A stretch of 64,000 nucleotides of DNA from NCBI GenBank assembly GCA_937902925.1, contig CALFNN010000010.1, positions 1-64,000 of the forward strand, in the 5' to 3' direction. The position numbers were made by a program, and so were the translations under genes. The stretch's first letter is position 1. The number at the start of each line of letters is the position of its first letter. The notes beneath the pieces were generated by a model, which ran no database searches, had not been told where the DNA came from, and saw nothing but the letters and a program-made list of their open reading frames with translations. The DNA is from an uncultured Opitutaceae bacterium. GTDB lineage: Bacteria > Verrucomicrobiota > Verrucomicrobiia > Opitutales > Opitutaceae. Positions 6,798 to 40,792 of the stretch are shown here, one piece after another.

Positions 6798-9560
6798 CTA
6801 ATTGATGGTGATGACGTAGTCGGGCGAGCCGGAGACCGTGGCATTGCCGTTGGCATCCTGCACGACGATCTTGAATCGATAGATTCCCGCGGTCGTCGGC
6901 GTTCCCCGCACCACGCCGCGGGCGGAGTCCAGCGTGAGTCCTGGGGGCAGTTTGCTGGTGGCGCTGTTCACGGCCGCCCATGAGAGCGGCAGCGGCGTTG
7001 TGGTGCCAAGCTTGTTGCCCGCGCTGCCGAGCGACACAAACACGGTGGCGGCGTAGGCCGAGCCGACCTGGCCCGAGATCAAGGTGTAGGACGCAAGATT
7101 GAGCTGCGAAAAGACCGACACGCCCTGCGGCGAACTGATCCCGTTGCTGTCCGGGGCGGTGCTTTCGGTGTCGGCGGTGAAGGAGACGTTCCCGGTGGCG
7201 GTGCGGCTGCCGTCGGACACGGTGACATTGAACACATAGTTGCCCGGTATGACCGTCCCGCCGTTGTAAGTGATCAGCCCAAAAGGCTGCAGCGCGACAC
7301 CGGGCGGCAGGGTTGAACCGGTCGTGACCGTCCACGTGTAACCGGAGAACGGCGTGCCGCCGTCGGCCATGAGGGTGCCGCCGTCGACGACGCTGCCCTT
7401 TCCGTAGGGGTCGTAGCTGCCGTAGAATCCGTTGCCCGGCACCACGCGCAAGTTGGAAGAGGCGCCGCCTCCGCCTCCACCTCCGCCGCCCGGGTTCGAC
7501 GTGAAGGTGGCCGTTACGGACAGGTTGTCGGTCATCGTGACGGCAACACTGGCGCCGCTGCCCGAAGCCGCTCCGCCCCAGCCGGAAAACGTGGATCCTG
7601 AACCGGCGGCTGCCGTGAGCGTGACCACCGTGCCGGGGGCATAGCTCGTGGCAGACGGACTGCGGGAGATTGTTCCCTGCCCCGTGCCGGCGGTGGACGT
7701 CGTCAGACTGAATGAACTCGCAGTGAGGGCAGTGCTGACATCGGTGCCGTTCTGTTGGAGTTGGGCGGCGTTGGTCTTGGCGGGCAGGATCTGTCCGTGG
7801 GACGTGCTGCCGTCGCTGAATGTAAGATGCGAGATGCCATTCACGACGACCGCGCGGCCGTTTGCCTGCTGGAGATCGCCGCCCGTGATGCGGACGTCGC
7901 TGGCCGAGCCAAGCACGAGCGCCGATGTGGCCAGGTCGAATGCGTCGATGTCACCCACGTAGACCGGCCCCGTGAACTGCACTCCGGGGGCCCAGATGCC
8001 GGTGAGGCCCGACGAGGCGTAGAAGCTCGCGTTGGCGGCCCGGATGCCGCCGAATTTTCCGTCGCTCGACGAAATGGCAATGAAGGAAAGGTCGGCGAGG
8101 CCGTCGTAGGTGATGTCTTTGAACAGAGCCTGGTTGACCGCGGTGATCCGACCGACGCTGAAGACGGACACGTTGGTGGTTTCGTCCGCCCCGGTAATCA
8201 CGATCCCGACGTGACCTTTCATATACAGGATCGACTGGTTGTAATTTGCCGGCAGCGCGGGCCCGGATGGATTGTCGAGGACGAGAGAGAGGGCGCCCGC
8301 ACCGCTGAACTCCACTTGAACGATGTCGTTGGTCAGGTCGACAAATGACGTGCGGGTGATTTTGCCGGCCTCGGCGGTCACGGTCGCCGCGGCGCCGTTG
8401 AGGAGGACTTGGTCGAACGTGTTGCCGTTCGCGGCCACATAGACGCCGTGAGCGATTTCTTCGCCGGCGCCAATCACCTTGCTGGTCGTGGTCACTCCCA
8501 CGATGGCAGGGTCGCTGGTCAGGTTCCCGGCCGGCGTCGTGATCAGCGCCGTATAGAGACCGGCCTTTGCGGGCTGGAGGTTGCTGACGGAATAGGTGGA
8601 TCCGGTGGCGCCGCCGATGGCCGCCCCGTTCAGGCGCCATTGGAAAGCGGGAGTCGTCGCTCCCGTGGCGCTGACCGACAATGAAACGGTCTGACCGGCC
8701 GCGGCGGCCTGGTTTTGCGGCTCGCTGGTGATGTGCGGGGCGGCCCCGGAAGCCTGCTGGAGCGCATCGAGCAGAACCTGGGGGCCGTGGACGAGGTATC
8801 CGCCCGTGCCATAGAGGATGACATAGGTGTCGTCGCTGCTGCCGATCGCAGCCCCGGTGACGCCCTGCGTTTGGACCGAGGCCAGTTGGGCGTTCATCGC
8901 ACTGGGCGCGAAGGAACGGTAGCCGCCATTGCCGTAAAAAATGATCCAGCTCTGGCCATTGCGGGCGAGGGTGACCCCGTTGATCGTCTTGCCCGCACCG
9001 GAGACGGCGTTGAGGTCGTCGATGAACTGGGTCGGCCCGCGCGCATACCAGCCCGTGCTGCCGTAGCGGACGAACCAAGTGGTGGTGCTGTCCGTCAGCA
9101 CAATGTTCGAGATGGCCCCGCCCGCTGCGGAGATGGCATTCAACTGGCTCGTCAGTTGCGAGTCCGACACCCGCGCAGTCCATCCCGACGTTCCATACGT
9201 GATGGCCCATTCGTTGATCGTTCCGCCCAAGCTCACCGATTTTATCGGCAACCGCTGGGAATTAATGGAAGAAAATGCATCCAACATCTGGTTGTCGCCG
9301 CGGGCAGCATAGCCGTTGGTCCCGTAAACGATGGCCCAGTTGGTCGTCGTGGCGCCCAATGCCACGATCTGGGGGGCACTGGACCCCGCGCTGATCGACT
9401 GGAGCGCCGTGATCATCTGAGAGTCTCCGTTTGCGACCCAGCCGCCAGCCGACGTCAGCACCACAAAGTTGGTTCCAGACTCTCCCATCACGAACCCGGA
9501 CACCTCCCCGAACGCGTTGAATCCAGTCAGGGCCAATCCGACCAATCCAATCAGTATCAT
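6798..9560 (-). CDS. Large modular secreted protein (repeats, Ig-like, putative-Ig domains)
   Basis: With the ATG at 9560 the product is 920 residues and begins with a signal peptide (ILIGLVGLALTGFNAFG). Residues about 31-270 hold six repeats of about 43 residues with the consensus W-x-[IV]-x-Y-G-x-x-G-[YW] (at 31, 75, 118, 162, 205 and 246). Residues 276-356 look like an Ig-like domain (SEPQNQAAAAGQTVSLSV, then FQWRLNG). Residues about 363-590 form an unrecognised beta-rich region with a GADETTNVSVFSVG segment. Residues 617-687 resemble a divergent bacterial repeat (ISRSPSATSYAPGTVVTLTA, then FSGWGG), followed by a nine-Gly linker and two putative-Ig modules with LPPG motifs at 751 and 871. 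Such architecture suits a surface adhesin or extracellular binding protein. No catalytic site was seen, and the start codon lacks a clear ribosome-binding site. Confidence 0.8.
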   Translation of the reverse strand: MILIGLVGLALTGFNAFGEVSGFVMGESGTNFVVLTSAGGWVANGDSQMITALQSISAGSSAPQIVALGATTTNWAIVYGTNGYAARGDNQMLDAFSSINSQRLPIKSVSLGGTINEWAITYGTSGWTARVSDSQLTSQLNAISAAGGAISNIVLTDSTTTWFVRYGSTGWYARGPTQFIDDLNAVSGAGKTINGVTLARNGQSWIIFYGNGGYRSFAPSAMNAQLASVQTQGVTGAAIGSSDDTYVILYGTGGYLVHGPQVLLDALQQASGAAPHITSEPQNQAAAAGQTVSLSVSATGATTPAFQWRLNGAAIGGATGSTYSVSNLQPAKAGLYTALITTPAGNLTSDPAIVGVTTTSKVIGAGEEIAHGVYVAANGNTFDQVLLNGAAATVTAEAGKITRTSFVDLTNDIVQVEFSGAGALSLVLDNPSGPALPANYNQSILYMKGHVGIVITGADETTNVSVFSVGRITAVNQALFKDITYDGLADLSFIAISSSDGKFGGIRAANASFYASSGLTGIWAPGVQFTGPVYVGDIDAFDLATSALVLGSASDVRITGGDLQQANGRAVVVNGISHLTFSDGSTSHGQILPAKTNAAQLQQNGTDVSTALTASSFSLTTSTAGTGQGTISRSPSATSYAPGTVVTLTAAAGSGSTFSGWGGAASGSGASVAVTMTDNLSVTATFTSNPGGGGGGGGGASSNLRVVPGNGFYGSYDPYGKGSVVDGGTLMADGGTPFSGYTWTVTTGSTLPPGVALQPFGLITYNGGTVIPGNYVFNVTVSDGSRTATGNVSFTADTESTAPDSNGISSPQGVSVFSQLNLASYTLISGQVGSAYAATVFVSLGSAGNKLGTTTPLPLSWAAVNSATSKLPPGLTLDSARGVVRGTPTTAGIYRFKIVVQDANGNATVSGSPDYVITIN

Positions 9561-9789
9561 TCGGAAAAAAGCAGCGGAATGATACCCCAAGACGGTCGAT
9601 TTCCCGGAATATGGACCGTTCGAGATCACCGTTGGAATTTGGGCGGCACTGCGTCCTGCGGCAATTCTAAATCCACGGTGCGGGTCACGTGGCCGCCCCT
9701 GGGAAGATGAGGCTCGATCAAGTCGCCGGCACAATGACGCGGATTCTCCCCGCACGCCGCGACCGCGGGAGCCTCACCTCTGAGAAACC

Positions 9790-9864
9790 TGGTGCGAATG
9801 CCGGGAGTCGAACCCGGATCAACGGCTTCGGAGGCCGCCACACTATCCATTGTGCTACATTCGC
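9790..9864 (-). tRNA. tRNA-Arg (anticodon CCG), CCA encoded
   Basis: On the minus strand the sequence folds into a full cloverleaf: acceptor GCGAATG/CATTCGC, D stem GCAC/GTGT, anticodon stem GCGGC/GCCGT with loop CTCCGAA (anticodon CCG, reading CGG), and T arm CCGGG-TTCGACT-CCCGG, with discriminator A and encoded CCA. It lies between the large secreted protein and the pectin locus. Confidence 0.97.
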
Positions 9865-9937
9865 GATGGCAGGTTGGGGATGAAGCGCGCCGGGGCGGGG
9901 CGCGTCAAGCCAACGCAAACCTGAATTGCCAGACTGA

Positions 9938-11872
9938 TCAGCGGGGCGAGGCGGCGGCCTGCAGGACGGCACGGTCGAGGCGGACGGCGAAGGGGACGGC
10001 GGGCTCCTCGATGATCTTCGTGGCGCTGCCGACCTCGGTGATTTTCGGGGCGTCGTGCAACTCGAGGATCTGGATCTCGTTCTTGCCGGGCTTCAGGAAC
10101 CCGGCGGGGAGAAACAGCGAGCGCAATGCGCCGCGGTCCCAATAACGGCCGAGGTTGTGGCCGTTGATCCAGACGGCGCCCATGCCCCAGTTGCGCAGGT
10201 CGAGGAACGTGTTCGCGGGCTGATCGACCGTGAACTCGCCGCGATAAAATGCCGGGCCGGTTGGAGTATCGGCGGACGCCTTGAATGCGGTCCCGTGTTC
10301 GAACGGCAGCGAATAATTTTCCCAGCCCTCCAGTTCCTTGCCGTCAAGCCACGCGCCATCGAGCAGGCCCTTGCGGGCGCGGTCTTGGCTTTGCGCGCTG
10401 ACGATCACGCTGATCCGGCCGAGATTGTGGACGAGAATGTCGAGCGTGACCGGTCCGGATTCGTTGAGCTCGATCCTGTCGCTCGCCGGTCCGTAGCCGT
10501 CGAAGCACCGGCCGACGGTGCGGCCGTTCACCATGACGACGGCGTAGTCCATCGCCTTTTTCAGCTCGAGCGTGCCCTTGAGGCCGTCGGCGAATTTTTT
10601 CCGGTAGAGGACGAAACCGTAGTCCTGATCGAGTGCCTCCATCGAGGCGGGCTTGACGGAGGCGAGCGTCGGCTGGGCCGGCAGCGTCGCGAGGAGCGGT
10701 TCCGATTGCGTGAGCTTGATCACGGGCAGGGCAACGACCGCAGGATCGGCCGGCGGGGCGGGCGGAGTGATCTTCAACCGCGCGCTGAGCAGGTCGCGCA
10801 GGGCGCGGTATTTTTCGGTGATGCGGCCGGCCTCGTCGATCGGGGCGCCGTAGTCGTAGCTCGTCTGCAGCGGCAGATGCTCGTTCGCCCCGGTGGAGAA
10901 GCCGTAGTTTGTCCCGCCGAAAAACATGTAGTAGCAAAACGACGCGTTCTTATCGAGGAGCGAGGTCGTCCAGTCGACGATCTGCGGGATGCTGGCGTTC
11001 CGGGTGGCGATGGGCTGGCCCCAGCCGCTGAACCACGCGGTGTAGACCTCGGGTGCGTAGGGCGGCAGGTCGCCGTTGGCGGCGATGGTTTGCTGGTAGT
11101 CGCGATCGTTCTTGAGGCCGTTGCGACCGCGCAACACGCCGGGCAACGCCTGGGCGGGATCGCGGACCGGCGCGAGAAAAGGATCGCAGGTGAAGAGCGG
11201 CACGTCGAAGCCGGCGTCGCGGAAAATCGTCTGCAGCGAGTGCAGGTAGTCGTTGTTGCCGCGCGAGACCATGCCATATTCGTTTTCCATCTGCACCATG
11301 AGGAGCGGTCCGCCATGGGTAACCTGCAGATCGCCGACCTCGCGGCCGACCCGCTCGATGTAGCGCCGGCTCCACTCGACGTATTTCGGGTCATTCGTGC
11401 GGATTTTCACGTCGGGATATTTCAGCGTCCACCAGGGGATGCCGCCGTAGTCGACCTCGGCGCAGCAATAGGGACCGGGGCGGAGGATGGCCCACATGCC
11501 GTATTTCTGGCAGAGCTGGAGGACGCGGCGGACATCGTTGGCGCCGGTGAAATCGAACTGGCCCTCGCGCGGCTCGCTCCGGTTCCAGAAGAGATAAAAG
11601 CTGAGCGTGTTCAGGCCCATCGCCTTCGCCTGACGGATGCGGAGATCCCAATCGCCGGCGAGCACGCGCCCGAAGTGCATCTCGCCGGCGACGAGGAGCG
11701 TGGGCTGGCCGTCGAGGAAGAATTGTTTGTCGCGCAACTCGAACTGGTGCGGCTTGCCGTCGGGGACGATAGACGTGACGGATTGGGCGGCGGCGGTGGC
11801 GGCGAGGGCGATCGTCGCGACGATGGAGGCGAACCGGAGGATCGAAGGGCGGTGGGGGCGAGGGCGGAACAT
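9938..11872 (-). CDS. Secreted GH35 beta-galactosidase
   Basis: A 644-residue glycoside hydrolase family 35 enzyme that removes terminal beta-galactose, here probably from galactan or arabinogalactan side chains of rhamnogalacturonan I. The start at 11872 gives a signal peptide ending ATAAAQS. The TIM barrel shows the family landmarks FFLDGQPTLLVAGEMHFGR and RPGPYCCAEVDYGGIPWW, the acid/base Glu198 in QMENEYG, the nucleophile Glu275 in APEVYTAWFSGWG, and FFGGTNYGFSTGAN. The C-terminal part holds galactose-binding-like beta domains (WINGHNLGRYWDRG). It is the last gene of the six-gene pectin unit, 35 nt after the acetylesterase gene. Confidence 0.95.
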   Translation of the reverse strand: MFRPRPHRPSILRFASIVATIALAATAAAQSVTSIVPDGKPHQFELRDKQFFLDGQPTLLVAGEMHFGRVLAGDWDLRIRQAKAMGLNTLSFYLFWNRSEPREGQFDFTGANDVRRVLQLCQKYGMWAILRPGPYCCAEVDYGGIPWWTLKYPDVKIRTNDPKYVEWSRRYIERVGREVGDLQVTHGGPLLMVQMENEYGMVSRGNNDYLHSLQTIFRDAGFDVPLFTCDPFLAPVRDPAQALPGVLRGRNGLKNDRDYQQTIAANGDLPPYAPEVYTAWFSGWGQPIATRNASIPQIVDWTTSLLDKNASFCYYMFFGGTNYGFSTGANEHLPLQTSYDYGAPIDEAGRITEKYRALRDLLSARLKITPPAPPADPAVVALPVIKLTQSEPLLATLPAQPTLASVKPASMEALDQDYGFVLYRKKFADGLKGTLELKKAMDYAVVMVNGRTVGRCFDGYGPASDRIELNESGPVTLDILVHNLGRISVIVSAQSQDRARKGLLDGAWLDGKELEGWENYSLPFEHGTAFKASADTPTGPAFYRGEFTVDQPANTFLDLRNWGMGAVWINGHNLGRYWDRGALRSLFLPAGFLKPGKNEIQILELHDAPKITEVGSATKIIEEPAVPFAVRLDRAVLQAAASPR

Positions 11873-11907
11873 GGAATGAAGACGAGTCGGGGAGGTAATC
11901 GGCCGGC

Positions 11908-13347
11908 TCACTTGCGGCCGGCGTCGCCGGGATTCGGAGAAGGGGTGGCGCCGCCGCGACCGCGGCCCGGGCCGGCGCCCGGCGGACGTGGCGGGCGGGG
12001 CTCGAGCGGAAGCTTGAAATCGTCGGGCATCGGTTGCGGGTGCTTCGGGTCGAAGGTGCCGGCGTCGTCGACGAGATAGTCGGCGAGGCCGAGCTTCGCC
12101 TGCCTGATGCCCTCGACGAGGCAGCGGGAAAAAAGATAGCCGCCGTAGCTGTCGCTGTGGAGGCCTTCGACGTAGGCCTTGGGCGCGAGTTGCGGGCCAA
12201 GGGAGGTCGCGAGGTCGATGCTCATCGCGTTGAGATCGATGCAGGCGACGTCGGCGAGCTTGGCGGCCTCGACGGCGGCCTTGGGATAGTCGCCGAGACC
12301 GGTGGTGTTGAGCTCGCCGGTGCGCATGTTGATCTTCGTCATCGGCGAGACGATGACGGGAATCCCGCCGCGGCGCTTCACCTCGACCGCGTAGGCGGCG
12401 AGGAGCCACTTGTAGTCGGTGTTCGCCTCGGAGTAGGTGTTGACCCAGTCGCCCAGCGTGTCGTCGCGCGGCCAGATACCGTCGTGGCCGCGCTGGTTGA
12501 GGTCGTTGTGGCCGAACTGGAGGAAGACATAGTCGCCCGGCTTCATTTCGCTCATGACCTTGAACCAGCGACCCTGCATGCGAAATGCCTTCAACGTCTC
12601 GCCCGACTCGGCGTGATTGGCGATGACGACGGGCGGCTTGAACCAGCGAGCCAGCATCTGGCCCCACGTGCCGTAGGGCTCGCTTGCCTGGTCGGTGACG
12701 GTCGAATCGCCGATGAGGAAGACCGTGATCGCATCCTCGACGCGCTCGATTTCCACGCCGCAGACGCACGGGTGCGCGCCGCTGAATTGGAGGGTGAGCT
12801 TGTCGTCCCATGTCGTGGTCACCGATGTGCCGAGGCCAGGAGTAGTCTCGCGACTGTCGAGCTTGAGCGTGTTGCCCGGCGACAGCGCGGCCGTGCGGAC
12901 GTTGACGAGGAATGATCGAGTCTCGAACTGGCCGGCGGTCGTCCGGACTTGCTCGAGCTCGAGCCGGCGCGTCTCGGCCTTCACGGTCGTGATGGATTCG
13001 CCGGAGGGGTCGCCAAGCGTGACAGTCACGCGATAGTTGCCCTCCGGCACGACAACGGAAAACCGGAAGAACGGATCGGTGGTCGTGGCGAAATCAGAGC
13101 GCAAAGCGTCGGCGCCGCCACGGTCGACGTCGCTGATCGCGGCGCCCGGCTCGAAACCATAGCCGCGGTCCTGAGCGAAGACCGTTTCAGCACGGACGCC
13201 AGCGTAGCCCGGAGCGACCGCACCGCTGCCGAAATCAAATTTGAAAGCGGTCGCGGCGGGTGCGGTCGTGGCGGCAAGCACGGCACCGGCGACCAGCGCG
13301 GCTAGTCGGCCGGCAAGAGGCGTTCGCGGAGCGCCGAGGGTGTTCAT
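11908..13347 (-). CDS. SGNH rhamnogalacturonan acetylesterase with N-terminal beta domain
   Basis: The 479-residue secreted protein has a signal peptide (to about residue 33), an N-terminal beta-sandwich of the kind often fused to these esterases (KFDFGSGAVAPGYAGV, about 35-200) and a C-terminal SGNH hydrolase. Catalytic blocks are GDST (Ser215), the Gly block at 249, GHND (Asn281) and the block V His397 in EGLHSDSYGG. Block V normally reads DxxH; here the acid position is Glu394. It should remove acetyl esters from the galacturonate units of rhamnogalacturonan so that lyases can act. The C-terminus is a Pro/Gly/Arg tail of about 40 residues. Its ATG overlaps the stop of the upstream PL4 gene (ATGA, 13347-13344), suggesting translational coupling. 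Confidence 0.93.
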   Translation of the reverse strand: MNTLGAPRTPLAGRLAALVAGAVLAATTAPAATAFKFDFGSGAVAPGYAGVRAETVFAQDRGYGFEPGAAISDVDRGGADALRSDFATTTDPFFRFSVVVPEGNYRVTVTLGDPSGESITTVKAETRRLELEQVRTTAGQFETRSFLVNVRTAALSPGNTLKLDSRETTPGLGTSVTTTWDDKLTLQFSGAHPCVCGVEIERVEDAITVFLIGDSTVTDQASEPYGTWGQMLARWFKPPVVIANHAESGETLKAFRMQGRWFKVMSEMKPGDYVFLQFGHNDLNQRGHDGIWPRDDTLGDWVNTYSEANTDYKWLLAAYAVEVKRRGGIPVIVSPMTKINMRTGELNTTGLGDYPKAAVEAAKLADVACIDLNAMSIDLATSLGPQLAPKAYVEGLHSDSYGGYLFSRCLVEGIRQAKLGLADYLVDDAGTFDPKHPQPMPDDFKLPLEPRPPRPPGAGPGRGRGGATPSPNPGDAGRK

Positions 13348-15260
13348 CGCGCGATAACGACCGACTTGGCGGCCTCGTCGAGCTCGAGGCGGAGGTAGTC
13401 GTAGATGATGCCGTTGTTCACGGGGCCGGCGGGGACCGTGATCGTGAGCGTGTTGGCGCCGCGTTTCAGCAGGGTGGCGTCGAAGACGAGTTCCTTCTCA
13501 TACCAGAGGCCCTGGATCGAGTGACGGGTGATGGCGCCGTCGCCCATCGGGAGTGCGACGTGGCCGGCAGGTTGGTCGTTGACCGAGAGGTCGAGCGTGC
13601 GCGTGCCGGTGCCACAGAGCGCGAGGCGAAGCGTGGCTCGACCGTGAGGAGCGGTGGCCAGGTCGAACGAAACGGTGAACGGTGTGGCGCGGCCGGGAGT
13701 GCGCACGCCGAAGTAGGGCTCGGCCTTGGCGGCTGGGTTTTCGTTGTGCGGGACCTGCTGGAAAAACCAGTCTTTGCGGAAATCGCCTTTACCGATGGCG
13801 TAGTTTACGTCGTCCGGAAACCGTTTCGCGTAGAGCAACGAGATTTCCGGGTCGGCGTATTCGTCGCCGCCGGCGAACTCGGAGCCGTTGCGATTGGGAA
13901 TGCCGATCTCCCAGACCTGTCGGCCACGGCGCGCGGGCGTCCACGTGAGCTGGCCGAGATCGAGCGCCTTGCCGGCGACGACGGTGACATCGGCCTGCGC
14001 GTATTCGCCGAGGATGCCGTCGGCGAACGCGCGCAGCGTGTAGGTGCCGGGCCGGACTTCCGGAATGACGAATGAGCCGTGTTCGTCGCCGCGCGCCCAA
14101 AATTCATAGTGTTTCGCGTCGGTCTGCCAGTCGATCTCGCGTGGCGTGGCGTCGGGGCGCGCGAACGGCGAGGTGTAGGCGGCGGGCGTGAGGCCGACGA
14201 GGAGGTTGGGCGTAGTGGCGCGCGGCGCCTGTGGATCCACGACGGCCAATCGGCCGGTAACGGTCGCCCGCTGGTTGCTACGGGGATAATCGACGCCCGA
14301 GACCCAGTCGTAGGGCCACTGCGCGGTTTCTTTTTTGCGCTGCGTTTGTGCGTCCTGCCAGAGCGCGTGGGTGTCGCCGCCGGAATTCACGTAGAGGAAG
14401 AACGGTCCGACGACCTTGGTCCAATGCTCGCCGGCGCCGACCTCGACCGCGGCGCCGCCATAATGCGAGCTGCGCCAGTAGTTCAACACGATGGGCGCGG
14501 CGACCGGCGTGGTGTCGCGGTGGCAGAGGAACTCCACCTTCGTTGGCCCGCCGCTGAGATATTCGACGGACGGGTTGATGAGCCAGAAGCCGGTCTGTTT
14601 TGCGGGGCTCGACCAACCATAGACGGGATGATCGAACTGGACGGCGGTGTAGATGTATTTGTCGCCCTCGTGAAGGTTGGCGGGGAAGGCCTTGTCGCGC
14701 TGCGCGTCGATCGTCATCCAATCGAACATGTCGGCGAGTTTCGCGGCGAAGCGCGCCTCGGTCATGGTCGCCGCGGGATATTCCGGCCGATGGTCGAACG
14801 TGCAATAGGTGTAGATGCCGTGGTCGCCGCGACCGAGCGCGTAGCGGATCTCGATGTCCATGGGGAAATCGCCACCCTGCGCCGCGCCGGGACCGTGGCC
14901 CATTTTTTTACCGCCGGAAATGCCCTTGACCGAGACTTCGCCGCGGTCGCCGTCGTTGTCGGCCGGATCGATCGTGATTTTCGTGAGCGTCTGCACGCCA
15001 CCGGTCGTGTCATGCGACCAATAGGCTCCGACATGGCCGGAGTGGAAGTTGAGCATCTCCGTGTCGCGATACGTGAGTGATTGAAGGTCTCCGGTGCGCT
15101 TGCTCACGCGCGCGGTCATGACGCCGTTGGCGAGCGTGAACGTGGCGTCGTCCTCCGTGACGGTGACGCGAGGATTCTGGGCGAAGGCGGTCGGGGACGC
15201 GACGGCGAGTGCGAGCGCGGCGGCGGTCGCGATGAACGTGGAGCGGCGAAGCAGGGACAT
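13344..15260 (-). CDS. Secreted rhamnogalacturonan endolyase, PL4 (copy A)
   Basis: This 638-residue protein cleaves the alternating rhamnose-galacturonate backbone by beta-elimination. It has a signal peptide (ending AFAQ), the catalytic beta-sandwich (about 30-345; RYALGRGDHGIYTYCTFDH, LNYWRSSHYGGA), an FnIII-like middle domain (about 345-440; PGTYTLRAFADGILGEYAQA) and a C-terminal carbohydrate-binding-like sandwich (about 450-630; WEIGIPNRNGSEF, VNNGIIYDYLRLELD). This is the three-domain order known for fungal RGL4. It is a clear paralogue of the PL4 gene two genes upstream. It ends in an ATGA overlap with the acetylesterase start and begins 15 nt after the CE7 gene. Confidence 0.94.
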   Translation of the reverse strand: MSLLRRSTFIATAAALALAVASPTAFAQNPRVTVTEDDATFTLANGVMTARVSKRTGDLQSLTYRDTEMLNFHSGHVGAYWSHDTTGGVQTLTKITIDPADNDGDRGEVSVKGISGGKKMGHGPGAAQGGDFPMDIEIRYALGRGDHGIYTYCTFDHRPEYPAATMTEARFAAKLADMFDWMTIDAQRDKAFPANLHEGDKYIYTAVQFDHPVYGWSSPAKQTGFWLINPSVEYLSGGPTKVEFLCHRDTTPVAAPIVLNYWRSSHYGGAAVEVGAGEHWTKVVGPFFLYVNSGGDTHALWQDAQTQRKKETAQWPYDWVSGVDYPRSNQRATVTGRLAVVDPQAPRATTPNLLVGLTPAAYTSPFARPDATPREIDWQTDAKHYEFWARGDEHGSFVIPEVRPGTYTLRAFADGILGEYAQADVTVVAGKALDLGQLTWTPARRGRQVWEIGIPNRNGSEFAGGDEYADPEISLLYAKRFPDDVNYAIGKGDFRKDWFFQQVPHNENPAAKAEPYFGVRTPGRATPFTVSFDLATAPHGRATLRLALCGTGTRTLDLSVNDQPAGHVALPMGDGAITRHSIQGLWYEKELVFDATLLKRGANTLTITVPAGPVNNGIIYDYLRLELDEAAKSVVIAR

Positions 15261-15275
15261 GGCAATTCCTTGGGA

Positions 15276-16607
15276 TTAGTTTTTCGCGTCAACCGGCATC
15301 CCGACTCGCTTGAGGAGCCACTCGCGCTCGACCACGGTGAGTCCGGGCACGCGCGGGTGGCCCATCTCCTTGAAAATATCGAGGGTCTTCGAGGCCGTGA
15401 TGACGTTGTAGGCGGAGAAGGTCGAGTCGGGCGGGCAGGTTTCGTCGTTGTAGCCCCAGCCGTAGTGGCCGGGGACCTTGATGCGGCGCGCGAAATTCAC
15501 GCTGTCGAAGTAGGCGGTCGTCGCGATCTTCGCGGCGCGACCCGGCTCGTTCGGATCCGCGAAACGCAGGCCGGGCCAGCCGCCGGCGCGGCCGTGCACG
15601 TAGCCGGTTACATCGCAGAAGGCGGGAAACGCGACGACGCAGGCCGTCACGCGCGGATCGAGCGCGGTGGTGGTGATCGTGAGGTAGCCGCCCTGGCTGC
15701 CGCCGAAATCGATCAGGTTTTTGTGATCCCACTTCGGCTGCGTGACGAGGTAGTCGTTGGCACGCAGGCAACCCATCAGCACGCGGCGGAAGTAGTAACG
15801 CCCGGGATCGTCGAGGTTGAGCGTCGGGTAGTTGCCGAGGGCGCCGTTGAGCGAGGTGTAGAGTTCCTGCGGGAGAATCACGGGAATTCCGTGGACACCG
15901 ACCTCGAGCGTGATGAAGCCGCGCTCCGCCCACTGGACCTGGCCGCGGAGTTTGCGGATGCCGGCGCCGGGCGGGATCATCATCGTGGGAAACGGACCTG
16001 CGCCGCGCGGCACGCAGAGGACGCCGTAGAAACGGCTCGTGCGCGACGGCGGCGTGCCGATGTTTTGCAGGCTGACTTGGAAGACCTCGATCTTGTCGGT
16101 GGTTTCCTCGGGCATCGGTGTGAGACGGGGGTCGAGGGGCAGCGCGGCGAGTTCGGCTTTGGCCTTGTTCCAGAACGCATCGAAGTCCGGTGGCTCGATT
16201 TGCGTCGGCTTGATTTTTTCCGGCGAGAAACCGGCGGTCGCGAGTCCACGCTGGGTGCGGCCGTCGCGGTCGATCGTGGCGATGCAGCGCAGGAAACCGG
16301 GTGCGGGCAAGGTGCCGCCGTCGAGGACGACGGTGCCGTCGGCGCCCGTGACGGCGGTCTTCTTCTCGGCGGGCATCATCTCCAATCCGATGGAGTAAGT
16401 GACGGTCGCGCCGGCAGTCGGAGCGTCGCCCGACATGACCGACACGGTGAACTTCACTGGCTCGCCCGGAAGATAGTTCCAATCGGCGTGGTCGCAGGTG
16501 ACGCGGACAGGCGACGTTGCGGCTGGCTGCGCATCCGCGCCGCGCCAGCCGAGCGCGAGCGCGACCAGCGGCAGAAGGAGGCGAACAGCGCGAAGGCGTG
16601 GCATCAT
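15276..16607 (-). CDS. Secreted CE7-type acetyl esterase (AXE1 family)
   Basis: A 443-residue alpha/beta hydrolase of the acetyl xylan esterase/cephalosporin-C deacetylase type. The first of two adjacent ATGs (16607) overlaps the upstream PL4 stop as ATGA and is chosen for that reason; the product then has a signal peptide (LLLPLVALALGWRGADA). Residues about 35-150 form an extra beta domain, then the catalytic domain opens with KIKPTQIEPPDFDAFWNKAK. The predicted triad is Ser304 (GGSQGG), Asp388 (YNDETCPP) and His417 (EMGHPRV). In this locus it most likely removes acetyl groups from pectic oligosaccharides; xylan is the alternative substrate. The classical RGQ motif is not obvious. Confidence 0.9.
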   Translation of the reverse strand: MMPRLRAVRLLLPLVALALGWRGADAQPAATSPVRVTCDHADWNYLPGEPVKFTVSVMSGDAPTAGATVTYSIGLEMMPAEKKTAVTGADGTVVLDGGTLPAPGFLRCIATIDRDGRTQRGLATAGFSPEKIKPTQIEPPDFDAFWNKAKAELAALPLDPRLTPMPEETTDKIEVFQVSLQNIGTPPSRTSRFYGVLCVPRGAGPFPTMMIPPGAGIRKLRGQVQWAERGFITLEVGVHGIPVILPQELYTSLNGALGNYPTLNLDDPGRYYFRRVLMGCLRANDYLVTQPKWDHKNLIDFGGSQGGYLTITTTALDPRVTACVVAFPAFCDVTGYVHGRAGGWPGLRFADPNEPGRAAKIATTAYFDSVNFARRIKVPGHYGWGYNDETCPPDSTFSAYNVITASKTLDIFKEMGHPRVPGLTVVEREWLLKRVGMPVDAKN

Positions 16608-18613
16608 GTCCGGGGCGTGCTCGCGGCGGACGCCGAGTCGTCGAGTTCGAGCCGGACATAATCGTAGAGGATGCCGTTGTTGATCGGGCCGGCGGGGACG
16701 ATGATCTTCAGGACGTTGGTGCCGGGCTTGAGCAGTGCCGCGTCGAACGGAAGATCGCATTCATACCAGAGGCCCTGGCGACCGTGGCGGGCAATCGCGC
16801 TGTCGCCGAACGGGAGCGTGATCGTGCCGGCCGGCAGGTCGTTGACCGTGACCTCGAGCTTCCGCGTCGCCGTGCCGCAGATCGCGAGACGCAGCGTGGC
16901 GGTGCCATGCGCCGCGCTGGCGACGTCAAAAGCGACGGCGAAGGGTGTGGCACGGCCGGCCGCGCGGATGCCGTAGAACGGCTCGGGCTTCGCGTCGGGG
17001 CTCTCGTTGTGCGGCACCTGCTGGAAGAACCAGTCTTTGCGATAGTCGCTTTGGCCGACGACGTAGTTCACGTCGTTCGGAAACAACTTGGCGTAGTCGA
17101 GAGGGATTTCGGGCTCCCAATACGATTCGCCCTTGAAAAGTTCGGAGCCGTTGCGGTTCGGAATGCCGATGTCCCATACCTGCCGACCGTGGCGGACGGG
17201 GGCCCAGGCGATTTTGCCGAGATCAATCTTGCCGGAGCCGATGGTCACGTCGGCCTGCGCGAACTCGCCGAGCACGCCGTCGGCAAACGCGCGCAGCGTG
17301 TAGGTGCCGGGGCGGACGTTTGGAATCATGAACCGGCCGTCGTCGGCGCCGCGCGACCAGAACTGGTAGTTCTTCGCGTCCTGCTGCCAGTCGACAGTGC
17401 GGGCGATGCCACTGGGACCGGGCGGCATCGGCGATTTCCACGCGGCGGCGGTGAGGCCGACGCGGACGTTGGTCATCTTCGCGCCGCCGGGCGCGAGCGG
17501 ATCCTTGAGCGCGAGCTGGCCGCGGACGGTCGCGCGCTGCGCCGGGCTCGGGTAGTCGACACCGGCGACCCAGGCGTAGGGCCACGCTTTCGCTTCCTTC
17601 TTTTGCTGCGCCTTGGCGTTGTCGAACATCGCCTGCGGGTCGGCGCCGGAATTCACATAGAGCATGAACGGGCCGATGACCTTCGTCCAATGCTCACCGG
17701 CGGCGACATCGACGACCGCGCCGCCGTAGTGCGAGCTGCGCCAGTAGTTCAGCACGCACGGTGCGGCGATCGCGTTGGTGTCGCGATGGCCCTCGAATTC
17801 CACCTTGGTCGGGCCGCCGCTCATGTATTCCATCGAGGCGTTGAGGATGTAGAAGCCGACGTGGTCGGTGCTGCTCGCCCAGCCGAACCCGGGATTGTCG
17901 GTCTGGTTGATGGTGTAGACGTATTTGTCGCCCTCGCGCAGCTCCTTCGGGTAGTGTTTGAAATGGTGTGGATCGTCGCCGACGCTCAGCCAGTCGAAGA
18001 ACGCGGCAAGCTTCGCGCAGAAACGCGCCTCGCCGAGCGAGGTCGTGGGATAGTCCGCCGGATGCTCGAACTGGCAATACGTGTAGACGCCGGAGTCGCC
18101 GGCACCGAGGGCGTAACGAATCTCGATGTCGGAGGCGAACTGGCCGGTCTTCTGGCCCTCGCCGGTCACGCCGGGTCCGGTGCCCATCTTGCGATCCTTG
18201 GAAATGCCCTTCACGGAAACCTCGGCGCGGGTGCCGCCATTGGACTTCGGATCGATCGTCACGCGGTCGATGGCTTCGCCAGCGCCCCGCACGCCCATCG
18301 CGTCATGCGACCAGAAGGCGTATTGGTGATCGGTCATGCCGCGATTGAGGCCGGTGAGATTCTGGCCCGGCGGATCCTTCACGAGATCCGGCAGGCCGTC
18401 CGGCTTCAGAAACGTGGCGAGCATCTCCTTGTCCTTGTAGCGCAGCGAAACGAGATCGCCCGAGGCTTTCGCGACCCGGGCGGTGACGATGCCGTTGTCG
18501 AGCGTGTAGAGATCGGCGTCCTCGGTGAGAGTGACGGGCGACGCAGCGGAGGCGGAGCCGGCGATGACGACGGCGGCGCCGGTGAAGAGCAGGGCGGCGA
18601 GGAGATTTTTCAT
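16604..18613 (-). CDS. Secreted rhamnogalacturonan endolyase, PL4 (copy B)
   Basis: This 669-residue paralogue of PL4 copy A has a signal peptide (LLAALLFTGAAVVIAGSASA) and the same three-domain order, with shared landmarks such as EIRYALGAGDSGVYTYCQFEH, LNYWRSSHYGGA, PGTYTLRAFADGVLGEFAQA and WDIGIPNRNGSE. It is longer by about 30 residues, mostly an insertion after LATFLKPDGLPDL in the N-terminal sandwich, near where substrate clefts are formed. It starts 39 nt after the CE15-like esterase gene and ends in an ATGA overlap with the CE7 gene. Two PL4 enzymes in one unit may split endo- and oligomer-directed activity; that is inference. Confidence 0.94.
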   Translation of the reverse strand: MKNLLAALLFTGAAVVIAGSASAASPVTLTEDADLYTLDNGIVTARVAKASGDLVSLRYKDKEMLATFLKPDGLPDLVKDPPGQNLTGLNRGMTDHQYAFWSHDAMGVRGAGEAIDRVTIDPKSNGGTRAEVSVKGISKDRKMGTGPGVTGEGQKTGQFASDIEIRYALGAGDSGVYTYCQFEHPADYPTTSLGEARFCAKLAAFFDWLSVGDDPHHFKHYPKELREGDKYVYTINQTDNPGFGWASSTDHVGFYILNASMEYMSGGPTKVEFEGHRDTNAIAAPCVLNYWRSSHYGGAVVDVAAGEHWTKVIGPFMLYVNSGADPQAMFDNAKAQQKKEAKAWPYAWVAGVDYPSPAQRATVRGQLALKDPLAPGGAKMTNVRVGLTAAAWKSPMPPGPSGIARTVDWQQDAKNYQFWSRGADDGRFMIPNVRPGTYTLRAFADGVLGEFAQADVTIGSGKIDLGKIAWAPVRHGRQVWDIGIPNRNGSELFKGESYWEPEIPLDYAKLFPNDVNYVVGQSDYRKDWFFQQVPHNESPDAKPEPFYGIRAAGRATPFAVAFDVASAAHGTATLRLAICGTATRKLEVTVNDLPAGTITLPFGDSAIARHGRQGLWYECDLPFDAALLKPGTNVLKIIVPAGPINNGILYDYVRLELDDSASAASTPRT

Positions 18614-18652
18614 GGGGTGATGGAGAGGAGCAGGGCGGTGGTGGAGAGGGGA

Positions 18653-20944
18653 TTAGTTGGCGCGCAGCCAGTCGATGGCGCGGTTTTGGGTGGCGGCAGG
18701 GAGGCGCTGGTAGTCGTCGGGCTCGTCGAGTCCGAGTTTCGTCGCGGCGTCGCGCAAGGCGTAGGCGGCGCGGGCGCGGTCGACGGCTGCGTGGACATCG
18801 GCGGGCGTGGCGTCGCGATCCATCGAAGGCTGGACGACGAGCACGGGGCGCGGGGCGATGGCGGCGAGCAAGTCGTCGTAGTCATAAGGCACCTGGGCCT
18901 CGTGGCCGATGAAGAAACCGAGCCGCGGCGCAACCGGGCGTTGCAGGCTGAGGCGCGCGAGGCCGCCGTCGGGTTTGTCGGCGGTGTCCGTGCGCATCGG
19001 CGTGAACCCGGAAATCGAGACGACGCTTTTCACGCGCGAATCGAGCGCGGCGGTGTGCAGCGCGACGGCGCCGCCGATCGTATAGCCGAAAAGCGAGATG
19101 CGCTGCGGATCGACGTTGGCGTCTTTTTCGAGGGCGTCGATGGCGGCGCGCGCGTCCTCGACCATCCGGCCGAGTTGCGAATAGTGCGGCGTGCGTTCGT
19201 AGAACGGCCCGATCTCGCTCGCGCGCGAGCCAAACCCGCACTGGTCGTAGGCCAGCACGGCATAGCCCGCCTTCACGAGCGCGAGCACCGGGTGCAGATC
19301 GCGGCGATAAACCCACATGTAGCCGAGCGGATAACTGTAGCCGTGGAGCCAGACGACCGTGGGCAGCTTGGCGTTGGCCGGCGTGCCGGCGGGAAAATAG
19401 AGATCGCCGGTCAGACCGTTGCTGAAACGGATGCGGCGCGTATCGGCGGCGGAGCGGTCGGGGTCGTTCCAACCGAATTCGATGCTGTTGCGCGCGATGA
19501 CCCAGGCGGGCACGTCGGGGCCGAGCTGGCCGGGATTGGCGACGGGCTTCATCGAGGTCGGGCTCGGGCCGCGTCCCGGGAACCCGCGAAAACCACGGCC
19601 CGCGGCGGAGTAGGAAGGCGGCGTGGCGCCGAGCAGCCAAGTGACGGCTTTGAGAGTGGCGGCGTTTTGCTGGTCGAGTTCCGCGACGGAGGCGGGCGCC
19701 GCGGCGACCTGGTGCGCGGGAAATTTTGCGAGGTCGACCGACTCGCCGCTGTTTTCCTTCCACGCGGCGAAGTCCCACGGAAACAGGATATCGTTGTGCC
19801 ATTTCCGCGCGGTCCGGCCGAACTGGGTGTCGAGCCAGTCGATGCATTGCTCGACGTCGTTCGCGCCGTGGAACCCGGGCACGCGCAAGACGCCGAGGCC
19901 GTCGGGGCGGCCGAGAGCCTCGTAGACCTTGAGGGCGGAGTGATAGGTTTGCTCGTCGCCCCAGACATTGGAGACCTCGTCGTTGAGGCCGTATTCCATC
20001 AGGCAGCCGCGCGGCGCGACGAGGGCGACGAGAAGATTCGCATCGACCGGCAGCCGGTCCTCGCGACCGGAAAAGAAACGGAGTTGCGGCGCGAACCAGA
20101 GCGGAAACATCCGCGTGGTCGATTCGATGCCCTCGCCCATGCCGCGTTCACCGGAGAGCCGCCACGGCAGCACGCCGCCGACGCCGGTGCTGCCGGCCAC
20201 GACGGCGGCGATGCGCTCGTCGAGCGCGGCGGCGATGGTGGCCATCTTGCCGCCGCGCGAGTAGCCGGTGATGGCGATGTGCGCCTTGTCGATTTCCGGG
20301 AGGGTGTAGAGATAATCGACCACGAGTTGGGCGGTCCAGGCCCGCTGGCCCATCGTGGCGAAATCGCTGGTGGGATAGAGCTCGGGAAGATTGGTCGTCT
20401 GGTCGACGCTGGACGGATATTCGCACGCGCCATAGCCACGGCGGAGAAGCGATGAAAGCCAGCCGCCGCCGCCGATCACGACCGGGAACGGACCGTTGCC
20501 CAACGGAAGCGTGAGCGTGACCTCGCTGGTGGCCTTGTCGTCCGGGCCGTATTCCAAGCGGACGACACGGGTGACATAGCCGTCGCCCTTGGTTTCGCTG
20601 ACAGGGACGATGCGATCGAGCTTGGGCTTCGGCGGGATGGTGCCGATGTCGTATTGCTCGAACAGCCGGCGGATCTCAGCGCGGCGGGCCGTCCAGTCAC
20701 CGGGCATCCTGACGGCGCGACCGTCCTGGAATTTGAACGGGTCGGGCAGGAAATTCGCGCTGGGCAGCGCATCGAAGTCGGGCGGAAGCGCGTGGGTTTT
20801 GGCGGCCCATTCGTTCCACGTCGGAACTTCGGGCAGGTTTTTCTGCATCCACTCGAGGTGGGCCCGCCGCCGGTCGGTCGACATGGCGTCGAGCGGGCGG
20901 GCCGCGAGGGCGAGAAGGATGCCGGCAACGGCGAGTGTCTTCAT
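18653..20944 (-). CDS. Two-domain esterase: CE15-like domain plus degenerate alpha/beta-hydrolase domain
   Basis: The 763-residue protein starts with a signal peptide (TLAVAGILLALAARPLDA). Residues about 70-395 resemble glucuronoyl esterases (CE15): nucleophile Ser229 in GYSRGGK, the family segments LPWR and DRLPVDANLLVALVAPR, and His359 in VPGFHG. Residues about 480-760 are a second alpha/beta hydrolase (VVWLHGYSYPLGY, YDQCGFGSR), but the nucleophile elbow reads GYTIGG with Thr622 instead of Ser, and no obvious catalytic His follows near 742-748. The first domain probably cleaves ester-linked uronates or O-acyl groups in pectin; the second looks inactive or repurposed. It is the first gene of the pectin unit. 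Confidence 0.85.
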   Translation of the reverse strand: MKTLAVAGILLALAARPLDAMSTDRRRAHLEWMQKNLPEVPTWNEWAAKTHALPPDFDALPSANFLPDPFKFQDGRAVRMPGDWTARRAEIRRLFEQYDIGTIPPKPKLDRIVPVSETKGDGYVTRVVRLEYGPDDKATSEVTLTLPLGNGPFPVVIGGGGWLSSLLRRGYGACEYPSSVDQTTNLPELYPTSDFATMGQRAWTAQLVVDYLYTLPEIDKAHIAITGYSRGGKMATIAAALDERIAAVVAGSTGVGGVLPWRLSGERGMGEGIESTTRMFPLWFAPQLRFFSGREDRLPVDANLLVALVAPRGCLMEYGLNDEVSNVWGDEQTYHSALKVYEALGRPDGLGVLRVPGFHGANDVEQCIDWLDTQFGRTARKWHNDILFPWDFAAWKENSGESVDLAKFPAHQVAAAPASVAELDQQNAATLKAVTWLLGATPPSYSAAGRGFRGFPGRGPSPTSMKPVANPGQLGPDVPAWVIARNSIEFGWNDPDRSAADTRRIRFSNGLTGDLYFPAGTPANAKLPTVVWLHGYSYPLGYMWVYRRDLHPVLALVKAGYAVLAYDQCGFGSRASEIGPFYERTPHYSQLGRMVEDARAAIDALEKDANVDPQRISLFGYTIGGAVALHTAALDSRVKSVVSISGFTPMRTDTADKPDGGLARLSLQRPVAPRLGFFIGHEAQVPYDYDDLLAAIAPRPVLVVQPSMDRDATPADVHAAVDRARAAYALRDAATKLGLDEPDDYQRLPAATQNRAIDWLRAN

Positions 20945-20992
20945 GGGGTTCGAGGAGGGGCGGGCGACCGGTCCGCCGCGACGTGGGCAAAC

Positions 20993-21004
20993 CGACACGT
21001 GTCG
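20993..21004. promoter_or_regulatory. Candidate operator: perfect palindrome CGACACGTGTCG
   Basis: A 12-bp perfect dyad centred between 20998 and 20999 lies 49-60 bp upstream of the first ATG of the pectin unit, in the only sizeable non-coding gap before it. Even-length dyads with a central CG are typical of LacI-family operators, but no regulator gene is present in the window and no second copy was found before the other pectinase genes. Confidence 0.4.
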
Positions 21005-21137
21005 AAAACGAACGACCCTAGCCTTGCCCGGAAGCCTGCGGCGACGAGCAGAAAATTGGACAGTTCGAACGGGGCCCGGCCCGTTCGCCCGGTGCGGGCG
21101 GCGGACGGAATCGTTCCGGCCCGCGGGCGCACGCGGC

Positions 21138-21797
21138 TCAGGCCGCGGGGTTGCGCCGGGAGGCGCGCCAGCCGCGAAGCGCCTCGACCGCGATCGGCAG
21201 CACGGAGATCACGATGATCGCGACGATGACGAGGCCGAAGTTTTTACGGACCAGCTCGGTGCCGCCAAAAAAATACCCGAGATAAGTGAGGAGATAGATC
21301 CACGCGCAGCCGCCGGCGAGATTGAAGCCGAAGAACCGCGGCCAGGACATCCGGCCGACACCGGCGACGAACGGCACGAAGGTTCGCACGATGGGCACGA
21401 AGCGCGAGAGGACGATGGAGCGGCCGCCATATTTCTCGAAGAAAGCATGGGCACGCTCGAGGTGCTTTTTGCGGAGCAGCCACGAATCCTCCCGGTGGAA
21501 GACCTTCGGACCGAGAAAGGCGCCGACACCGTAGTTGACGAGGTTGCCGAGCACCGCGGCCACCGCGAGGGTCAGGGCGAGGAGATGGACGTTGAGGACG
21601 CTCCCCGCGCACAGGGCTCCGGCCGCGAACAGCAGCGAGTCGCCGGGCAGGAAGGGGGTCACGACAAATCCCGTTTCGGCAAAGATGACGACGAACAGCA
21701 GCGCATAGGTCCACAGCCCGTAGTGGGCGATGATATCCTGCAAGTGGCGGTCGATGTGCAGGACGAAGTCGATCAGGTGGTGCGCGAGTTCGATCAT
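21138..21797 (-). CDS. DedA family membrane protein
   Basis: The 219-residue protein has the DedA/SNARE-associated pattern: an early ETGFVVTPFLPGDSLLFAAG helix region, then FFEKYGGRSIVLSRFVPIVRTFVPFVAGVGRM with the key Arg residues, and C-terminal membrane helices around 165-205. Members act in the inner membrane as flippases or transporters of polyprenyl phosphate or phosphatidylethanolamine and support envelope integrity. It lies downstream of the small basic protein gene but is separated from it by a strong terminator, and the pectin unit begins about 190 nt beyond it. Confidence 0.93.
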   Translation of the reverse strand: MIELAHHLIDFVLHIDRHLQDIIAHYGLWTYALLFVVIFAETGFVVTPFLPGDSLLFAAGALCAGSVLNVHLLALTLAVAAVLGNLVNYGVGAFLGPKVFHREDSWLLRKKHLERAHAFFEKYGGRSIVLSRFVPIVRTFVPFVAGVGRMSWPRFFGFNLAGGCAWIYLLTYLGYFFGGTELVRKNFGLVIVAIIVISVLPIAVEALRGWRASRRNPAA

Positions 21798-21808
21798 CGG
21801 GTGGGGTC

Positions 21809-21841
21809 AAAAAAAAGGCAGGCAGCGAAAAACTGCCTGCC
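21809..21841 (-). terminator. Rho-independent terminator after the small basic protein gene
   Basis: On the minus strand a perfect 9-bp stem (GGCAGGCAG/CTGCCTGCC) with a 7-nt loop is followed by eight T residues. It sits 20 nt after the stop of the small basic protein gene and just before the DedA start. Confidence 0.92.
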
Positions 21842-21861
21842 GGGAAAGGGGAGGGCCGGAC

Positions 21862-22017
21862 TCAGACGTCGGGCTTGGTCTTGCGGAGGCCCTGGACGCG
21901 GTCGCCGACCTTCCACTGCCCGCGCTTTTTGAGGATCGCGACGCGCTCGAAGCGTTTCAGAACGTTGCGTTTGATGACGAGGCCGGAGACGCCCTGGAGG
22001 CTTTTATGCTGTGACAT
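21862..22017 (-). CDS. Small basic protein (Chlamydiae/Verrucomicrobia type)
   Basis: The 51-residue Lys/Arg-rich product runs from MSQHKSLQG through HRNVLKRFERV-type sequence (here KRNVLKRFERVAIL) to WKVGDRVQGLRKTKP. It matches my recollection of the short, highly basic protein family restricted to Chlamydiae and Verrucomicrobia (TIGR04137 type), whose function is unknown and may involve nucleic acid or ribosome binding. The ATG at 22017 is the start that fits that family; a longer in-frame extension upstream has no similarity. It is followed at once by a strong terminator, as expected for an abundant short transcript. It is the best phylum marker here. Confidence 0.88.
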   Translation of the reverse strand: MSQHKSLQGVSGLVIKRNVLKRFERVAILKKRGQWKVGDRVQGLRKTKPDV

Positions 22018-40572: not shown

Positions 40573-40792
40573 GACAATGATGCCGGCGGGATCGCCGGCG
40601 AGGGGTTGACGAAGGAGACTGACGGATAACGGGGAAAAAGGATGGAAGAATTTCGAGAACCAGGACAAGGCGACAAAGGAGTGCCCCGATGGGGTCACGG
40701 TGAAGCTGAATGACGACGTCAACTCCCGGCGCCACGCACCGGCGCCCGGTGGCGGCGCGCAAGAAGGAGCCGCAGGGAACCAATGGGCTCGT

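Follow-up and report, generated by a model that had tools for sequence, protein, structure and literature searches.

Short overlaps between neighboring genes are generally associated with translational coupling, according to the available sections of two studies (PMC10666635, PMC6728339). The ATGA termination-reinitiation pairs treated there are the closest described counterparts of the junctions analyzed here, with which they share a four-base co-directional overlap within an operon. As far as the available text of PMC10666635 goes, short overlaps occur preferentially where the two genes specify subunits of a heteromeric complex, whereas the products of our junctions, read from sequence alone, are separate secreted enzymes. 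In the available part of PMC6728339, one of five E. coli pairs tested was uncoupled, and equal amounts of two products would require a coupling efficiency of 100%, which is still to be quantified. The accessible portion of PMC9487903 describes modifications, including acetyl groups, as a hindrance to rhamnogalacturonan hydrolases and CE12 enzymes as removing the acetyls, so that a pairing of backbone cutting with deacetylation makes general sense. Clostridium thermocellum has an RGAE-Doc-CBM35-RGAE protein with two RGAE modules per polypeptide, like the tandem SGNH proteins described below, and one sigma factor recognizes both the promoter of its gene and that of a rhamnogalacturonan lyase (PL11) gene. 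In the available description (PMC4711584) no lyase is fused to it, whereas relatives of our locus join a PL4 lyase directly to two SGNH domains.

The window (the whole stretch of DNA analyzed, 64,000 nucleotides) contains a minus-strand run of six genes, with gaps in gene order of 39, −4, 15, −4 and 35 nt:

18653..20944, minus strand: two-domain esterase, glucuronoyl-esterase-like (CE15-like) plus dienelactone-hydrolase/AXE1-like, hereafter CE15/DLH (Pfam PF22244, 2.4e-43; PF01738, 1.1e-12)
16604..18613, minus strand: PL4a, rhamnogalacturonan lyase of family 4, with a signal peptide (by eye) and Pfam PL4 domains I–III
16604..16607, minus strand: ATGA overlap of the PL4a stop (TGA 16606-16604) with the ATG at 16607-16605 that opens the CE7 frame
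15276..16607, minus strand: CE7-like acetyl esterase with an N-terminal extension and a signal peptide (by eye) (PF05448, 2.4e-38)
13344..15260, minus strand: PL4b, with PL4 Pfam domains, 57% identical to PL4a; Shine-Dalgarno (SD)-like AAGGA upstream
13344..13347, minus strand: ATGA overlap of the PL4b stop (TGA 13346-13344) with the ATG at 13347-13345 that opens the SGNH frame
11908..13347, minus strand: CE12-like SGNH esterase with a YxiM-type galactose-binding domain (PF21254; PF13472, Lipase_GDSL_2)
9938..11872, minus strand: GH35 β-galactosidase, the final gene of the operon, after a gap of 35 nt (PF01301, 2.4e-89)

The start of the CE15/DLH gene is the ATG at 20944, and its Pfam scan was run from 20938. 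No match to a sigma-70-like promoter was found across 9500-21900 (shuffles give 1.1); such scans are weak evidence, and the result makes a single transcript plausible. From their families, the PL4 lyases would cleave the rhamnogalacturonan I backbone, the CE15/DLH-like, CE7 and CE12-like esterases would strip acetyls or other esters that stand in the way of cleavage, and the GH35 enzyme would trim galactan side chains. We consider it highly probable that the operon is a set for secreted enzymes degrading acetylated rhamnogalacturonan I, of an ordinary kind and with ordinary overlaps. Named relatives place the genome in the Verrucomicrobiota, probably within the family Opitutaceae.

All three PL4 domains (I, PF06045; II, PF14686; III, PF14683) exceed the curated cut-offs in both PL4a and PL4b. 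They are common to the Aspergillus aculeatus PL4 lyase (1nkg, 2xhn), from which domain I of the window lyases differs in being barely alike in sequence; PL4b used alone matched no solved structure. Lys150 and His210 of 1nkg, which we take to be the catalytic pair, align with K230 and H295 of PL4a, in a segment whose match lacks significance on its own. Both residues are invariant in an alignment of 20 PL4 homologues, which supports their assignment as counterparts. The CE7 protein matches the solved acetyl xylan esterase 6agq (9.8e-32), with whose Ser, Asp and His its Ser304 (GGSQG), Asp388 (YNDE) and His417 (GHP) align, presumably as the catalytic triad; it has both the AXE1 domain and the Ser-Asp-His triad motifs that define the family. 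The CE12-like protein resembles YxiM (2o14, 3.6e-27), with which it shares the galactose-binding domain, and the rhamnogalacturonan acetylesterase RGAE (1deo, 6.6e-9), and has the Ser and His motifs of both. Its GDS and GHND blocks are present. Unlike both structures, it has Glu394 at the position of the triad Asp, giving ExxH where DxxH is expected; the residue is Asp in 10 of 10 aligned relatives.

The earlier note had placed an overlap of each PL4 stop with the next ATG at 16607-16604 and 13347-13344, which proved exact to the base, and it had called the partners esterases of unrelated families, as the Pfam matches bear out (AXE1/CE7, PF05448, versus SGNH, PF13472). It had further proposed that selection for a fixed stoichiometry of backbone cleavage and deacetylation produced the arrangement twice. 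That part is not supported: the overlap rate is the ordinary one of the genome, none of the 45 other PL4 genes examined that have a co-directional next gene overlaps it, and the partners vary.

Overlap frequencies were counted with a home-made, unbenchmarked hexamer-based gene caller on 322 kb of the window's genome, a non-random sample of 15 stretches (the window, neighboring stretches of three contigs, and PL4 loci). Four-base overlaps account for 30 of 177 same-strand neighbor pairs, a count that includes only one of the window junctions, since the caller put the CE12 start at a GTG in that run. This is 17% for the four-base class alone, compared to ~15% for overlaps of any length among gene pairs of most prokaryote groups, as given in the available part of PMC6728339. 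Pooled with two relatives, the count is 45 of 318. Among close same-strand pairs (gap up to 50 nt), with the operon excluded, the rate is 29/90, or 25/89 without the caller's bonus for short spacing; it is lower in the relatives G002 (6/31) and G001 (9/37). At these two rates, the probability that at least two of the five operon junctions overlap by four bases is 0.52 or 0.43, and that both PL4 junctions do so is 0.10 or 0.08. Thus, two overlaps among five junctions are expected from the genome's own rate. The overlapped junctions are both PL4-to-esterase ones and no others, a 1 in 10 outcome for random placement of two among five. Typical operon compaction would account for the ATGA overlaps, with the start of a newly adjacent gene having settled on the PL4 stop.

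Further PL4 genes were sought in 252 family genomes (matches at 1e-60 in 22 and 27 of them) and in the phylum (7 of 387 genomes with matches at 1e-80), with at most 3–4 candidates per genome scored, so that all PL4 counts are lower bounds. Among the family genomes listed, none is of the window's own genus. On the examined stretches 56 PL4 genes were called, of which only the two in the window overlap their downstream neighbor. Of the other 54, three are cut by the contig end, six have a neighbor in the opposite orientation and 45 have a co-directional next gene; by the home-made caller, 0 of these 45 overlap it, the smallest gaps being 14, 14, 16 and 17 nt. The 54 include at least five further PL4 genes of the window's own genome. 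The check that the earlier note had suggested, for overlaps in PL4 genes of relatives, therefore went against its proposal. Contigs L008, L009, L011-L014, L017 and L018 are equal in length to G-named family contigs and were counted once. Outside the 56 stand L015 and L016, the former serving as outgroup in the PL4 tree, and the Planctomycetota contig L010, which is in the tree; a PL4 end fragment on G017:C138 and the fragment G184:C201:62-922 were omitted from it. PL4a groups with G123a, G002 and G001, and PL4b with G017, G123b and the Planctomycetota MAG, each with support 100/100. As the only overlapped rows in these two distinct clades are those of the window, the overlaps arose separately, each most likely in the window's own lineage, and the statement that the lyase-esterase overlap arose twice stands.

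The in-group of the tree comprises 21 rows, with the downstream side readable in 19. An esterase lies directly downstream of PL4 in nine of these, or in 7/17 without the window: as a tandem SGNH gene after 14 nt in G002 and G061, 17 nt in G001 and 260 nt in G017, and fused to the lyase in G086, G221 and G223. The other rows have another PL4 (6), a TIR-TPR protein (2), GH35 (1) or no co-directional gene (1). The lyase-esterase partnership in relatives is real. Its partners turn over (tandem SGNH, another PL4, TIR-TPR, GH35), which comes near the random shuffling of pairings that the earlier note had named as speaking against itself. A steadier lyase-esterase neighborhood is found upstream. Of the 12 loci with that side visible, 10 have the CE15/DLH esterase gene immediately before the first PL4 (the window, G001, G002, G010, G017:C138, G061, G123, G184, G373 and L010), at gaps of 8–155 nt and with an overlap in none of the 10. 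The other two are G086, which lacks this order, and G221, in which it is not direct.

The window's own partners are found in other settings. The seven near-full relatives of the CE12-like protein that were examined (57–70% identity; L082, L083, L085, L169-L172) include four that follow a carboxylesterase (in G221, G086, G017 and G222) and three that do not; in G221 the relative is joined by ATGA to the carboxylesterase, not to a lyase. No PL4 lies on the stretches examined around the nearest CE7 relative (73%, G081) or around seven weaker ones (L176-L180, L184, L185), which argues that CE7 is not a regular companion of PL4. A 66% relative, G017:C343, shares its 3.5-kb contig with a single further gene. 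CE7 matches at 1e-30 occur in 121 of 252 family genomes. The tandem SGNH family, found at 1e-80 in 74 of the 252, is not tied to PL4 either.

In G061, CE7 and CE12 genes lie behind a carboxylesterase and match in parts only (CE7 residues 19–102 and 313–438; CE12 residues 18–157 and 441–473), so that they look internally deleted.

In three relatives the lyase and esterase form one polypeptide. In G221 and G223, Pfam shows a single frame that encodes the PL4 domains and, after them, two SGNH domains; G086 has the same fusion (BLAST). One unaligned residue separates the two parts in G221 and G086, and the esterase part corresponds to the free-standing G002 protein from residue 49 onward, so that the esterase signal peptide is missing; in G223 a proline-rich linker intervenes and the esterase part starts at residue 30. 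The first SGNH domain of the G002 protein matches the rhamnogalacturonan acetylesterase 1deo (1e-30). As the fused rows share one 100/100 clade, a single fusion event is possible; the clade also holds two unfused genes and its inner order is open. In G001 the tandem SGNH protein is fused to GH35 instead. Assembly error is made less likely by the size of the G221 and G001 contigs, 7.8 and 6.1 Mb. No PL4-esterase fusion or overlap is described in the titles and abstract starts searched, a scope with most subscription journals outside it. The PL4-SGNH-SGNH proteins are ready-made candidates where an efficient enzyme for acetylated pectin is wanted.

The fusions suggest some pressure to keep lyase and esterase activities together. 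It is conceivable, though we think it unlikely, that a lasting pressure in the clade to deliver PL4 together with a rhamnogalacturonan deacetylase was solved differently in each lineage: by ATGA coupling in the window, by spacing of 14–17 nt in G002, G061 and G001, and by in-frame fusion of PL4 with an RGAE-like and a second SGNH domain in G086, G221 and G223. If so, the overlaps would be one of several answers on the way from neighboring genes to a fused enzyme.

A narrower proposal, that coupled lyase-esterase pairs were made twice because backbone cleavage and deacetylation were selected to stay in fixed proportion, can draw on two separately arisen overlaps, each of a lyase followed by an esterase, on the three PL4-SGNH-SGNH fusions, all from one clade of relatives, on the tandem SGNH genes 14–17 nt behind PL4 in three other relatives, and on the enrichment of short overlaps among heteromeric complex subunits in the available text of PMC10666635. 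We nevertheless regard it as doubtful, because the background overlap rate suffices, the 45 other PL4 genes lack the overlap and partners change between relatives; conservation of overlap and partner, expected under a selected stoichiometry, is not seen. Moreover, both enzymes have signal peptides of their own (by eye). We know of no complex between a PL4 lyase and its partner esterase, and with separate signal peptides the ratio of synthesis need not equal that outside the cell. The sequence can be explained without selection on the lyase:esterase ratio. Had stoichiometry been selected, overlaps in carbohydrate operons could reveal which enzymes act as pairs; the background rate and partner turnover suggest instead that an overlap in a single genome is a poor guide. 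Adjacency kept across species, as for CE15/DLH and PL4, and in-frame fusions are better ones.

Under our preferred reading of ordinary compaction, coupled translation at both PL4-esterase junctions is plausible. Termination-reinitiation would be likely at both sites, as at ATGA pairs generally, and translation of the esterases would probably depend on that of the lyases. Such coupling is a generic property of ATGA overlaps and so shows no selection for a fixed ratio. The −4 or −1 stop/start overlap that marks termination-reinitiation pairs is present at both junctions, with an ambiguous CE12 start. SD pairing at the esterase starts is −2.2 (CE7) and −3.0 (CE12) kcal/mol; it is also weak at PL4a (1.3), GH35 (0.1) and the CE15 gene (−0.1 kcal/mol). 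Across the four main junction classes of the genome, 12–30% of starts reach −4.4 kcal/mol, somewhat more often at −4/−1 overlaps (30%) than elsewhere (12–19%); a fifth class, of longer overlaps with 3 starts, has 67%. The weakness at CE7 and CE12 is thus not special, and a Shine-Dalgarno signature of coupling was rejected, as other operon starts equally lack strong sites. One structural feature is predicted at the CE7 junction:

16603..16662, minus strand: 11-bp stem whose 3′ arm holds the CE7 start codon, in the fold of 16575-16670

With the start codon within its arm, this stem would fit a dependence on PL4a translation. The fold is not significant (z −1.47; matched by 15 of 200 shuffles) and the CE12 junction has no such stem (fold z 0.03), so RNA structure was likewise rejected as evidence of coupling.

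One or both overlaps might be merely apparent, with the true esterase start farther downstream. A GTG at 13281, 66 nt downstream, scores as well for CE12 as the ATG at 13347 (244.3 versus 243.3 by the home-made caller), and CE7 carries two adjacent ATGs, the second of which, in frame at 16604-16602, would give a one-base TGATG overlap instead. A later CE12 start would truncate the signal peptide, which by eye is complete with the ATG only and so favors 13347, and for CE7 any start beyond 16604 falls short by 5 units or more (220.0 versus 225.2, same caller). We judge it improbable that either overlap is lost in this way.

Descent of both overlaps from one ancestral PL4-esterase unit, duplicated whole and with one esterase later replaced, is very improbable and is disfavored by the PL4 tree: the paralogues PL4a and PL4b (57% identity) end at matching C-termini in their alignment, but they belong to different supported clades, each with members from other genomes lacking the overlap, and their partner esterases match unrelated Pfam families.

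One low-GC genome, G179, lies outside the 56 genes, as the caller detected no PL4 gene in it; a PL4 at 6953-8899 shows among its ORFs, with an ORF of 706 aa beginning 6 nt further on.

In relatives of the Opitutaceae bacterium, a PL4 lyase is fused in frame with two SGNH esterase domains in three genomes, which represent two genera.

L083 5558-9130, minus strand: PL4 and two SGNH domains, one frame
L082 10185-13709, plus strand: PL4 and two SGNH domains, one frame
L089 1681-5487, minus strand: PL4 and two SGNH domains, one frame

The esterase signal peptide is wholly absent from the L083 and L082 fusions. The tandem SGNH protein is also found joined to a glycosidase, on a contig of 6.1 Mb, and PL4 units are joined to each other in a Planctomycetota MAG.

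L081 8319-11804, plus strand: GH35 beta-galactosidase, replacing PL4, fused with the tandem SGNH protein
L010 5195-8914, plus strand: two PL4 units, single 1239-residue frame

In six further genomes (G187, G188, G190, G192, G193 and G194), matches to the tandem SGNH and CE12-like proteins lie close together on the same contig, within long open frames (934–972 residues for frames with a listed length), possibly representing a triple SGNH fusion.

Other neighborhoods of PL4 genes contain the following:

L080 4185-11624 (G123), minus strand: TIR-TPR proteins interspersed among the PL4 genes
L181 2487-3778 (G061), minus strand: relatives of CE7 and CE12, partial matches only, downstream of a PL4-SGNH-carboxylesterase arrangement

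Within the window, the CE12-like esterase of the operon differs from 10 aligned relatives at the catalytic Asp position, which is occupied by Glu394. Two other genes of the window are listed below it.

11908-13347, minus strand: CE12-like SGNH esterase
28800-30722, minus strand: single 640-residue frame with a lipid A acyltransferase domain and a GT9 heptosyltransferase domain
38743-40698, minus strand: GH28/rhamnogalacturonase-like protein

The GH28-like gene is located ∼18 kb away from the operon and adjoins a DUF1501 gene.
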